NCBI GenBank assembly: GCA_017413085.1
Contig: JAFPVC010000031.1
Coordinates: forward strand, 1-34,195
Direction: 5' to 3'
Length of the DNA stretch: 34,195 nt
Source: Prevotella sp.
Lineage (GTDB): Bacteria; Bacteroidota; Bacteroidia; Bacteroidales; Bacteroidaceae
Shown here one piece after another: positions 3,646 to 34,008 of this stretch; the first letter of the stretch is position 1, and each line of letters begins with the position of its first letter. Below the pieces are notes generated by a model. It ran no database searches, was not told where the DNA came from, and saw nothing but the letters and a program-made list of their open reading frames with translations. A program made the translations under genes and the position numbers.

Positions 3646-3757
3646 GAATTAAGAATTAAGAGTTAAGAATTAAGAATTAAGAGTTAAGAGTTAAGAATTA
3701 AGATTTGGGAGTTGAGAATTGAGAGTTGGGAGTTAGGAGTTTAGTAGTTAGGAATTA
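3646..3757 (+). repeat. Sixteen in-register 7-bp repeats (GAATTAA/GAGTTAA family)
   Basis: From 3646 to 3757 the spacer can be cut into sixteen 7-mers without a gap. The first eight are exactly GAATTAA or GAGTTAA. The later ones decay (GATTTGG, GAGTTGA, GAATTGA, GAGTTGG, GAGTTAG, GAGTTTA, GTAGTTA, GGAATTA). It fills nearly the whole mraZ-rsmH spacer and holds no gene. Confidence 0.9.
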
Positions 3758-25463: not shown

Positions 25464-27578
25464 TTATTTATCAGGCGGAGCAATGCCCAATTCCTTGGCA
25501 CGCTCAGCATTACGGTGCTTGACTTCCTTTTTCTTCTCTCCCTTCTGTTTCGTTATCTCGGCAGGCTTCTGCAGATATAGACTGCGCCCCGTCAGGTTCC
25601 ACTGTTTGGTGTAGTCCCATTTTGCCTTACACTCCACCGGCTCATGGTAGTAATACACCTCTTCGGGCTGCACATTATTATAATAGTCGCCGGTATCCCA
25701 CTTGCCATTACCGTTGCGATCAACTATGGCACGCAGATAATATGTGCCGGCAGCAAGATAATACAGTTCGGCAGTACCGTCGACCACCGTTGCCGAACGC
25801 ACCACGCCATCACCGTTATTGAGTAGCTGCACTATAATCTGGGGCTTGACAGCCGATGTGGAGTCATTCCCCTTGTCATGCGGAAAGACTGCAGGCGTGA
25901 CATTGACGAACAACGAGGCATAATCCTCCGTATGGCCTATCATAATTCCAGCCTTATAGGGTTCCGACGTATGGCCGTAGATGTCCTCAAACGCCAGAGT
26001 GTCCACCTCAAGCGAGTAGCGCGCTCCCGGTATCCATTCGGAATACAACTGCCAGTTGCGCATAGAGGGCAGCGTATCGGTACGAAATATGGTGACAGGT
26101 GCACGGAACCACATCGAGTCCTGCTCAACATAGAGATGCACTGCGCTGGTATCTACCTTCAGCATTGGAGCCTCAAAAGATATTCCCACCACGCCGTCAG
26201 GGTCCATCTGCTGTTTTAGATTGTATCTTGGTTTCAGCCTTACAGGTGGCATTATTGTATCTATCTCCGGCGGAATGAGCGAAGCCTCTGTCTCCGGGTC
26301 AAGGCGGGCTATAATCTTCTCACGCTGACGTATCTGCTTGTCAATGTCCTTACGCCAATTGTCATACTCCTCTTTCTGCTGTTTCATGCGCTTGGCATAG
26401 GGTGTCTTGGCAAGCACCTCAAGCGTGTCGGTTTGAATTTGCAACATGCCCAGCGTATCGGTCTGGAGCGTGGTCATCTCAACAAGCAGTGTGTCTTGGT
26501 TAACCAGCAACGTGTCGCGCAGCCAATATGTAAGAGTATCGGCAAGTCCGGCATAATGCTCACACACATACCAATCACCCGCATTGATGCCGTCAGGAGC
26601 ATTGAGCAGACGCAACTGCGGCTGTTGTCCTATGGCAGGGTTGCCGGCAAAGCGTTTCAGGCTGTCAACATGTATCGGTGCGGTAAAGAACAGCGAGAAG
26701 TTTTCTGCATCATTGCGCTCATGCTTTAGGAAAAAGCGATCAGTCTGCTCATGCATGAACAGGCGCAGCACTATGTCGTCAGGCATGAAGTGGGTATATG
26801 CAGTGCGCTTTATATCCTTGATATGCAAATCATCAAGCCATACAGTGTCCTGCCTGTGGTCAAGAAACGACGACGGTGTAATCAGACGGTCAGAGAAAGC
26901 CATGAGCTCAGCACGACTTGAGAAACGGTGGTCGTCGTCCATGTCTTGCACTGCACCCACATGGTAGGCAGCACCAGCCTTTACGCCGCGTATCACGAAA
27001 TGACCTTGCGAATCGGTGCGCGATACACGCAGGAAAGCCTTTGCTGTATCGGCTCTTGCCGTGTCAAGCAGTCCAACCAAAATACCTTTTACTGGCTCGA
27101 GGTCTTCTGCATTGAGCACATATCCCGAGCACTCCATAGTGTCTATCTGTTCGCCCGTAGAGAAGCTGTAGGTATAGTTGCCCATGGGATTGCCCTCATT
27201 ATTGTCCACGATGGCATCAGAGAAATCGATGGTGTACGTGGTATTGGGCTTCAGCGAGTCTATGAGGTTTATTGTGATGCGCTTGCCTTGCGTCTTTATC
27301 TCCGGTTGCTCTTTCTGCGGCGGCGAGATGACTACTTTCTCCGATGCGTTCTCCAGTTTTATGTATTCGTCGAAATATATGCTGACGCGTTTCTGTGTCA
27401 CTCCTGTCTCACGCTCTGCAGGCGACGCACTGATGACGCGTGGCGGTGTCTCGTCATACCATCCGCCGTCGGGAGCTCCCATGCGGGCGCAGGAGGTTAT
27501 CATTGCCATGCTCAGCAATGATAAAGTGAAAAGTGAGGAGTGAAGAGTGAAGAGTGAAGAATTTAAGTTACGCGCCAT
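25464..27578 (-). CDS. Lipoprotein with N-terminal Big_5 (Ig-like) domain
   Basis: The start at 27578 gives 704 residues with a lipoprotein signal: MARN, a hydrophobic core to about residue 26, and lipobox ITSC with Cys30. After it, PPRVISASPAERETGV opens a Big_5 Ig-like domain (about 44-143) ending NYTYSFSTG. The rest contains several beta-rich stretches and a helical, charged segment around KRMKQQKEEYDNWRKDID. Near the end is a DRNGNGKWDTGDY calcium-loop-like motif. No enzyme motif was seen, so the function is unknown. Oddity: the hydrophobic core reads SLFTLHS then SLFTLSL because it is encoded by an upstream 7-bp repeat. An in-frame ATG at 27638 would add 20 residues and is less likely. 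Confidence 0.78.
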   Translation of the reverse strand: MARNLNSSLFTLHSSLFTLSLLSMAMITSCARMGAPDGGWYDETPPRVISASPAERETGVTQKRVSIYFDEYIKLENASEKVVISPPQKEQPEIKTQGKRITINLIDSLKPNTTYTIDFSDAIVDNNEGNPMGNYTYSFSTGEQIDTMECSGYVLNAEDLEPVKGILVGLLDTARADTAKAFLRVSRTDSQGHFVIRGVKAGAAYHVGAVQDMDDDHRFSSRAELMAFSDRLITPSSFLDHRQDTVWLDDLHIKDIKRTAYTHFMPDDIVLRLFMHEQTDRFFLKHERNDAENFSLFFTAPIHVDSLKRFAGNPAIGQQPQLRLLNAPDGINAGDWYVCEHYAGLADTLTYWLRDTLLVNQDTLLVEMTTLQTDTLGMLQIQTDTLEVLAKTPYAKRMKQQKEEYDNWRKDIDKQIRQREKIIARLDPETEASLIPPEIDTIMPPVRLKPRYNLKQQMDPDGVVGISFEAPMLKVDTSAVHLYVEQDSMWFRAPVTIFRTDTLPSMRNWQLYSEWIPGARYSLEVDTLAFEDIYGHTSEPYKAGIMIGHTEDYASLFVNVTPAVFPHDKGNDSTSAVKPQIIVQLLNNGDGVVRSATVVDGTAELYYLAAGTYYLRAIVDRNGNGKWDTGDYYNNVQPEEVYYYHEPVECKAKWDYTKQWNLTGRSLYLQKPAEITKQKGEKKKEVKHRNAERAKELGIAPPDK

Positions 27579-27702
27579 CCGTGTGCATAACTTATTTATA
27601 AACTTTTCTATTGTATTGTATGAAAAAGTAGTAATCATTCTGCGTGTTTAATTCTATGAAAACGTAACTTAAATTCTTCACTCTTCACTCTTCATTCTTC
27701 AC
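27533..27702. repeat. 170-bp inverted-repeat element (MITE-like or hairpin)
   Basis: The arms 27541-27572 and 27663-27694 are a perfect 32-bp inverted repeat, extending to 40 bp with two mismatches (27533-27572 and 27663-27702). The 90-bp centre codes for nothing. Each arm is built partly of 7-bp units: AGTGAAG on the left, from 27525 to 27559, and CTTCACT on the right, from 27676 to 27703. The right arm contains the stop codon of the GH3 gene. The left arm encodes residues 3-13 of the lipoprotein signal peptide, and the lipoprotein ATG is 4 bp inside the centre. No target duplication was evident. Confidence 0.85.
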
Positions 27703-29229
27703 TTCTTTCGCTGCAAGCGAAAGGATTTCCTCTATATGCTGTCGCGAGTTTGATAGTCGTGGTACCTTGTGCTGTCCACCCAGTTTGCCCTTCATCTTCA
27801 GCCAGTCGTGAAACAGTCCGGGGCGTGCCTTCACCAAGTCAAGGCGCACCATGTTGATGTCCTTGAAACGCTTTGCCTCATAGTCGCTGTTGAGCTGCTG
27901 CAGACGCTGGTCGAGCAGGTCGGCGAAACGGTTCAGGTCGTCAGGTTCTTTGCTAAATTCCACCACCCACTGATGATGCGGCACCACGCCATCGCTTCTG
28001 TGCACTGGTGCAGCGGTGTATTCGCTCACTACCGCTCCTGTCTTGTCACAGGCGTATGCCAGACCCTGCTCAGCGTTGTCCACTATGAGTTCCTCGCCGA
28101 AGGCATTAATAAAGCTCTTCGTGCGGCCCGTTATGATGAATTTATATGGATTCTTGCTTGTGAAGCGCACCGTGTCGCCTATCATATAGCGCCACAGTCC
28201 GCATGAGGTGGAGATAATCATGGCGTAGTTTTTGCCCAGTTCCACACCCTCTATCGGCACCACCTTCGACGCATCCGTCAGCAGGCCGTTGTCGTCAATA
28301 GCCTCCATGGGTGCGAACTCATAGAACACGTCGTAGTCGAGCATCAGCAACATGGCAGGGTCGAGAGGGTCGCTCTGTATGCCGAAGAAGCCTTCCGAGG
28401 CATTGTATGTCTCCATGTAGTTCATGTCCGGATTGCCCACGAGCTGCTCATACTGTTTGCGGTAAGGCGTGAAGGCAATGCCGCCGTGGAAGAATACCTC
28501 AAGGCTTGGCCATACCTCGCTGAGAGTCTGCTTGCCGCTGAGTTCCATCACGCGTGAGAGCACCGACATCATCCATGAAGGCACGCCGCTCAGGTTCGTC
28601 ACGTTCTTCGTGAGGCACTGCCGTGCTATCTGCTCGCGCTTCACCTCAAAGTCGCTGATGAGTGCCGTCTGCTTGTCGGGCACGCGTATGAGGTTCACCA
28701 GTGGGTTGATGTTCTCTATCAGTATGGCAGAAAGGTCGCCCACGAGCGAGCCGGCCACGTTGTAGTTGGGAGAGTGCGAACCGCCAAGTATCAGTGCGCG
28801 ACCGTCAAACAGTCTGCTCCTAGGGTTGTTCTTCAGATAAAAAGCCACCACGTCAGAACCGCCGGCATAGTGTATGCGTTGCAGTCCCTCCTTAGATACA
28901 GGTATGAACTTCGATTTGTCGTTGGTGGTACCCGATGACTTGGCATACCATTTCACCTTCCCCGGCCACAGCACGTCTTTCTCACCATGGCGCATGAGGT
29001 CGATGTCGCCCTTCAACTCCTCATAGGTGTTGACAGGTACCAGCCGGCTGAAATCCTCATACGAGCGGATGGTGCCGAACGATTTCCTGCGTCCGTACCT
29101 CGTGTCGGCAGCACGCCTGATGAGATGTATCATCACGTCATGCTGCAGTTGTGCTGCCTGTGTTATGTGCTTCTCCAACTCTCTCTGTCGCTTGATAAAA
29201 CCAAGTCGAGCAATTGATGTCAGTCCCAT
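27685..29229 (-). CDS. GH3-family acyl-adenylate/amide synthetase-like protein
   Basis: The 514-residue protein resembles the GH3 family, named for plant auxin-conjugating enzymes that adenylate a carboxylic acid and join it to an amino acid. The ATP-binding block YAKSSGTTNDKSKFIPVS is at about 94-111, as in GH3 and other ANL enzymes. FFHGGIAFTPYR, METYNASEGFFGIQ and MIISTSCGLWRYMIGDTVRF match the usual later motifs. Bacterial homologues are common in Bacteroidota, but the substrate is not known here. The last codons (KEVKNEE, stop) lie in the 7-bp repeats of the neighbouring element. Third gene after ruvB; ybeY is 36 bp upstream. Confidence 0.85.
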   Translation of the reverse strand: MGLTSIARLGFIKRQRELEKHITQAAQLQHDVMIHLIRRAADTRYGRRKSFGTIRSYEDFSRLVPVNTYEELKGDIDLMRHGEKDVLWPGKVKWYAKSSGTTNDKSKFIPVSKEGLQRIHYAGGSDVVAFYLKNNPRSRLFDGRALILGGSHSPNYNVAGSLVGDLSAILIENINPLVNLIRVPDKQTALISDFEVKREQIARQCLTKNVTNLSGVPSWMMSVLSRVMELSGKQTLSEVWPSLEVFFHGGIAFTPYRKQYEQLVGNPDMNYMETYNASEGFFGIQSDPLDPAMLLMLDYDVFYEFAPMEAIDDNGLLTDASKVVPIEGVELGKNYAMIISTSCGLWRYMIGDTVRFTSKNPYKFIITGRTKSFINAFGEELIVDNAEQGLAYACDKTGAVVSEYTAAPVHRSDGVVPHHQWVVEFSKEPDDLNRFADLLDQRLQQLNSDYEAKRFKDINMVRLDLVKARPGLFHDWLKMKGKLGGQHKVPRLSNSRQHIEEILSLAAKEVKNEE

Positions 29230-33950: not shown

Positions 33951-34008
33951 AGTGAAGAGTGAAAAGTGAAAAAGTGAAAAGTGAAAGATTGAAGAATTGA
34001 AGAATGAA
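33951..34008 (+). repeat. AGTGAAG/AGTGAAA heptamer-like repeats
   Basis: AGTGAAG, AGTGAAA and AGTGAAA-like units follow with one or two 1-bp slips, then GATTGAA, GAATTGA and GAATGAA variants. The units match those in the inverted-repeat element at 27.5 kb. The bases from 34009 to 34116 hold a doubled GTAAGGGATT and repeats of GATTTG, with no gene seen. Confidence 0.7.

Follow-up and report, generated by a model that had tools for sequence, protein, structure and literature searches.

How an inverted repeat may end one gene and open the next: a probable heptamer-armed palindromic element, exapted as an export signal, at a GH3–lipoprotein junction in Prevotella

How can one inverted repeat both finish a protein and supply the export signal of its neighbor? 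The question is raised by a 34,195-nt stretch of a Prevotella sp. genome (contig JAFPVC010000031.1; the window), in which such a repeat lies between two co-directional genes, one for a GH3-family protein and one for a lipoprotein. Combining comparisons of this junction across relatives with searches for the repeat arms elsewhere, we consider it likely that the repeat represents one resident copy of some palindromic element dispersed in this lineage, built on heptamer arms and reminiscent of Rickettsia palindromic elements, that has been exapted as an export signal. An initial annotation had proposed a mobile donor of an export signal or, if static, a hairpin tuning translation, an interpretation that is partly supported here; beyond it lie the other units found at the junction in other species and the copies found in frame inside enzymes.

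The two arms (27531..27572, plus strand, and 27663..27704, minus) are 42 nt each, 95% complementary and spaced 90 nt. By eye, their two mismatches lie 7 and 10 positions in from the outer end, which leaves the perfect 32-nt run around a 90-bp center that the annotation had described. The pair scores 36 against a maximum of 10 among 60 dinucleotide shuffles of the junction, and because of the inverted arms the mRNA strand folds strongly (-95.5 kcal/mol, z -9.17; 0 of 200 shuffles equally low), as the annotation had anticipated; score and fold together exclude a chance origin of the pairing. Two close relatives from other assemblies (L109 and L110) share the arms and a near-identical center at the same place, so that an assembly artefact is unlikely. 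Arm 1 combines AGTGAAG heptamers with the box ATTTAAGTTACG, and its reverse strand encodes the signal-peptide core, while arm 2 contains the GH3 stop codon (27685-27687, minus) and the final GH3 residues. The heptamer tracts themselves cover 36 nt at arm 1 (27525..27560, plus) and 29 nt, four units and one base, at arm 2 (27675..27703, minus), and outer stem-loops lie beside arm 1 (27497..27524, minus, encoding the end of the h-region) and beside arm 2 (27705..27723, minus, within the GH3 3′ end). The pair spans 172-179 bp, with terminal inverted repeats and no gene inside.

The upstream GH3 open reading frame (27685..29229, minus; PF03321, 1.1e-50) terminates within arm 2, and that of the lipoprotein (25464..27638, minus; Big_5 domain, PF13205, 5.7e-25) reads MARNLNSSLFTLHSSLFTLSLLSMAMITSC, also given as RNLNSSLFTLHSSLFTLSLLSMAMITSC, across arm 1, with both candidate ATGs (27638 and 27578) in the unstranded center (27573..27662), which is retained in L109 and L110. 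In lipoprotein signal peptides a lipobox precedes the Cys. Judged by eye, the peptide MARN...MITSC (27489..27578, minus, Cys codon included) has this pattern, with a basic start and a hydrophobic core before the lipobox, and its Cys, encoded at 27489-27491, is the first residue of the conserved CARMG with which the mature protein begins and aligns with the Cys of orthologues. From these features we infer a working signal peptide. Orthologues without arms, where read, have signal peptides made of unrelated residues; the same residues in unrelated codons, which the annotation had named as evidence against its proposal, were not seen.

The same junction holds different repeats in related species. 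We tried 96 loci, comprising the window, 29 genus genomes with a match (with the window's own, the best 30 of 93 matching among 100 genomes) and 66 of 80 named loci (the best 80 of 350, less 14 distant ones, L174-L177 and L179-L188). The stretch from GH3 to the Cys was obtained from 85, the remaining 11 having no GH3 neighbor; this sample leans toward near relatives and includes some species twice, with 80 distinct proteins. An inverted pair scoring at least 12 occurs in 23 of the 85 junctions, each beating 60 of 60 shuffles; 62 score below 12, among which L111 (score 11) and L115 still beat 60 of 60. With L141 (non-tandem), L044 (a repeat of L114) and L045 (a CCCTCTCC palindrome) set aside, 20 distinct tandem cases use eight 7-8-mers, set by hand (AGTGAAG, AATGAAG, AGTGAAT, AAATGAC, AAATGAG, AGAGGTA, AAAAAGGT and AATGAAAG), with one arm at the GH3 stop and the other in the signal peptide. 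Plain junctions measure 65-74 nt at their shortest, with the GH3 stop overlapping the lipoprotein start (ATGA); other pair-less junctions are longer, some with other repeats. Short repeats of further kinds (CATAATG, GGAATGTG, TTACCAGCCA, AATAAGCC) were noted at this junction in L053, L061, L062/L118, L115 and L119.

Across 21 carriers (L045 included), arm complementarity has a median of 19 within a genome versus 7 between different units (95th percentile 15, maximum 23), and in 19 of the 21 a carrier's own right arm outscores all right arms of other unit classes; carriers were picked for pairing, so that only the low cross-unit complementarity is independent information. On the lipoprotein tree we count at least 12 changes between pair and no pair and at least 19 over all states, by a short search with hand-set states that leaves room for horizontal exchange of the region. 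Even close sisters differ: L120 and L123 carry AGTGAAT, L125 carries AGAGGTA and L170 is plain, and L142 likewise differs from L145.

All eight units (in nine spellings) share a property that bears directly on the opening question: one strand stops in every frame, and the opposite strand is stop-free and rich in hydrophobic residues. Thus the AGTGAAG strand offers TGA in three frames and its reverse strand is open and hydrophobic in three; with a unit length that three does not divide, the frame makes no difference. The inverted arrangement makes the element read the same from either side, so that a pair placed between two co-directional genes terminates the upstream one and starts the one downstream.

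Arms of the window type are not confined to this junction. In the window's own genome they typically comprise an AGTGAAG run, whose length is often exactly 29 nt, and then a box resembling ATTTAAGTTAC. A search with the arms returned 106 matches, grouped by eye into about 38 sites including the window (40 of 74 candidates were scored, one place often matches both arms, and the two arms of the C45 element described below were counted once), and a 15-nt arm pattern with one mismatch allowed gave 122 overlapping matches versus 3 for the reversed control. Many copies form inverted pairs: inspection by eye gave sixteen candidates, of which two or more are irregular; pairs other than the window's measure 71-171 bp, with one of 527 bp, and the centers of other arm copies differ from that of the window. 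AGTGAAR tracts have at least one match in 61 of the 100 genus-sample genomes and 90 matches in the own genome, counts for which the reversed-pattern control is unreliable, as the reversal still fits the tract in part. The window holds another AGTGAAG tract (33951-33987) beside TTCGCTACGCTC, a sequence that also flanks several other genomic copies, and a 50-nt run of AATTAAG/AGTTAAG heptamers (3654-3703).

Junction carriers also tend to be rich in their own unit. For four of the eight units in 26 genomes, carriers rank high for the unit they carry (joint permutation p 5e-5, a value that is indicative for a set of related genomes selected by their junctions). AAATGAY has 34 and 33 matches in its two carriers and at most 10 in the other genomes; carriers have 66, 78 and 126 matches of AGAGGTR, 50, 13 and 5 of AGTGAAT, and 31, 36 and 44 of AATGAAG.

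Several of the dispersed copies are themselves read as protein. Six further arms, all apparently without a partner, encode signal-peptide cores (recognized by eye), namely those of a GH5 protein (L011), an outer-membrane efflux protein (L016), a GH43 protein (L022), a SusE-like protein (L027), a 151-aa protein with no Pfam match (L039) and the chaperone OmpH (L019). Signal-peptide sites thus number 7 of about 38 with the window, an excess with a binomial probability of 1e-7 to 1e-4 if 1-3% of the genome encodes signal peptides, a background assumed rather than measured. At OmpH, a second locus found in 19 of 20 genomes, the signal peptide is heptamer-coded in G000 and G100, degenerate in G101 and of AATGAAG type in G007, matching the unit at the GH3 junction of that genome; the other 15 OmpH genes show, by eye, no clear tract of these heptamers, L212 being T/A-rich and L213 having a 9-bp repeat. 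In the latter (OmpH of G017) the signal peptide derives from the apparent repeat TTTTCTGTG, whose unit is a multiple of three and therefore not frame-independent.

Other copies lie in frame within enzymes. IspG, LigA and a GT9 glycosyltransferase carry closely similar 98-bp bodies at unlinked sites (L013, L017 and L028), the glycosyltransferase with two pairs and one further tract, and MnmG has a single in-frame arm. In the first three proteins, one heptamer deviates at the in-frame TGA, which leaves the first arm readable. Compared with solved structures, LigA residues 234-260 are unaligned, MnmG shows a 12-residue gap at the arm, and the IspG element falls within a longer unaligned stretch (283-378). 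The IspG query gave 21 further matches to the element peptide alone (in G000, G100, G101 and G102), 17 of them stop-free and 4 with stops; 15 of the 17 sit within open frames no shorter than 395 aa. Among 11 IspG loci (L198 and L199 not read, L194 incomplete, L197 with a different insert), the linker of G000 and G102 holds heptamer elements with different centers, that of G007, G097 and G020 little or nothing, and that of G100 and G103 another repeat, with the peptide SPSPWGGAGEG. This second repeat type, CCCTCTCC...GGGGAGAGGG-like, is seen in the linkers of L190 and L193 and also at one GH3–lipoprotein junction (L045). In addition, in large, seemingly paralogous proteins (L026, L028:302-330, L031, L033) a heptamer tract (SSLFTPHSSL) directly precedes a C-terminal WHTVxGIRLSGKP motif.

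A possible source of such elements is suggested by genes of the S23/IVP family (PF05635). In the C45 element of the own genome, between genes that we take to be pta and ackA, 55-nt arms with window-type heptamers and box enclose a PF05635 gene, and the other two PF05635 genes with E below 1e-20 also sit between short-unit arms (five weaker matches were left out of this inspection). Arm scores reach at least 15 in 18 of 33 S23 loci, 30 of them from the genus search and five incomplete, versus 10 of 131 cross-locus control pairs, an impure control whose top score of 98 must be due to shared sequence. The gene is present at C45 and absent from the window copy, whose 90-nt center is too small for it; we regard S23/IVP elements as candidate parents of the repeat.

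We propose that the element arrived at the GH3–lipoprotein junction by insertion, that survivors were filtered to tolerant places such as junctions, signal peptides and linkers, and that the arms may homogenize afterwards. In reading direction the first arm ends the upstream gene and the second provides the downstream gene with an export-type start; an S23/IVP element bearing the same arms is a candidate parent. Several observations weigh against this reading. Target-site duplications of at least 4 nt flank 0 of 12 paired elements, one of which is cut off by a contig end (control fraction 0.064), and no transposase was identified, no profile search having been aimed at one. No second copy of the window center was found in the own genome among the 40 of 74 candidates scored; the mobile donor of the initial annotation is accordingly supported in that arms of a dispersed family supply an export signal, but not as regards movement of the whole 170-bp unit of arms plus center, which L109 and L110 share at the same place. 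Some non-carriers are rich in junction units: AGAGGTR has 84 (G034), 47 and 37 matches in three of them, AATGAAG 76 (G115), 49 (G110), 26 and 20, and AGTGAAT 87, 31, 28 and 20 in G112, G006, G100 and G107, the reversed control of this last unit being itself high (32 in G117, 30 in G006, 20 in G116). G070, with 165 AGTGAAR matches, has a different repeat at its junction, L112 has a right arm only, and centers appear vaguely alike by eye between species with different units, which would fit turnover of the arms in place.

Growth in place is the alternative that survives best. Slippage would have multiplied a short junction sequence, such as the AATGAAGAA at the overlap in plain relatives, and quasi-palindromic template switching would have copied it inverted into the signal-peptide region, the arms co-evolving thereafter. 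The presence of ATGAAGAA in several plain junctions, the differing states of close sisters at one site and the match between arms within a species all agree with it. We nevertheless find this account unlikely, as it leaves aside the dispersal of the units across the same genomes, the similar 98-bp bodies at unlinked in-frame sites and the recurrence of the unit type at OmpH in G007, G000 and G100. Far less probable is a conserved regulatory RNA hairpin, holding the lipoprotein start in its loop to tune translation or cleaved by RNase III as for 23S rRNA intervening sequences. While the strong fold, the position of both ATGs in the loop and the pairing retained although sequence differs would suit it, the 62 low-scoring junctions indicate that pairing is not required, apparently unpaired arms encode other signal peptides, and no Rfam model matched at its gathering score (the five hits with E up to 1 were to microRNA models and scored far below it). 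An invertible promoter switch, which the 42-nt inverted arms around 90 nt might recall, is rejected, as the three species with this center all have it in the same orientation and both arms are coding.

If the repeat is an exapted dispersed element, it connects selfish palindromic DNA with the origin of bacterial export signals and offers natural replicates, one junction carrying different repeats in related species. This makes the emergence of new signal peptides open to test, alerts annotators that N-termini may be repeat-borne, and points to S23/IVP genes as possible parents. More tentatively, it is possible that palindromic families of 7- and 8-bp units in Prevotella-type genomes serve as frame-independent modules meaning "stop here, export there", whose insertion at a junction would end one protein and supply the next with a functional signal peptide in any frame and either orientation; mobile DNA would then rewrite export signals time and again, with S23/IVP genes as the parents.

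In mainly open-access literature, with subscription journals largely outside the search, we found no description of the element under Bacteroidetes or Prevotella heptanucleotide repeats, S23 inverted repeats, tandem-repeat signal peptides or coding palindromes, and the three papers listed for the arm sequence or peptide concern salmon, Arabidopsis and a human cell line. As far as this literature extends, the logic of the heptamer arms, the recurrence of many units at one junction and the S23 association are new. Among known systems, BrickBuilt of Porphyromonas gingivalis, a miniature inverted-repeat transposable element, is likewise a Bacteroidetes repeat with tandem units and inverted ends; as far as its account goes, however, its 23-nt units lie in the middle, its inverted ends are IS5-like and it is always intergenic (PMC4596501), whereas here heptamers form the arms and the arms are coding. 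Of the hallmarks of such transposable elements, the window repeat has terminal inverted repeats without a gene, and target-site duplications were not found; as for a parent with the same ends, the S23 element may be one. PARCEL repeats are also palindromic DNA that encodes protein, described in the accessible text as 25-residue tandem domains (PMC2996958) rather than as frame-independent arms and signal peptides. The S23 open reading frame is found in the Coxiella 23S rRNA intervening sequence, presented there as a selfish element (PMC4990558); the C45 gene lies between arms of the window's unit and box, while the window copy is outside rRNA and without the gene.

A repeat-borne signal peptide has been reported for the intragenic RU repeats of enterobacteria, in a pestis protein whose counterparts in other genera have unrelated signal sequences (Delihas 2007, PMC2759123). 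These are other repeats in other hosts, and the available part of that account describes no recurrence of different units at one junction. Closest by description are the Rickettsia palindromic elements, outlined in a review as repeats of ~150 bp that integrate in frame into unrelated genes, where they specify a conserved peptide (PMC10969869). The window pair is of comparable size (172-179 bp against a criterion of ~100-150 bp), and its relatives lie in frame in unrelated genes (IspG, LigA and GT9, with a single arm in MnmG), while the window copy instead spans a gene junction. Unlike them, the Prevotella elements have tandem 7-mer arms whose units vary by species, one strand stopping in all frames and the other writing a signal peptide.
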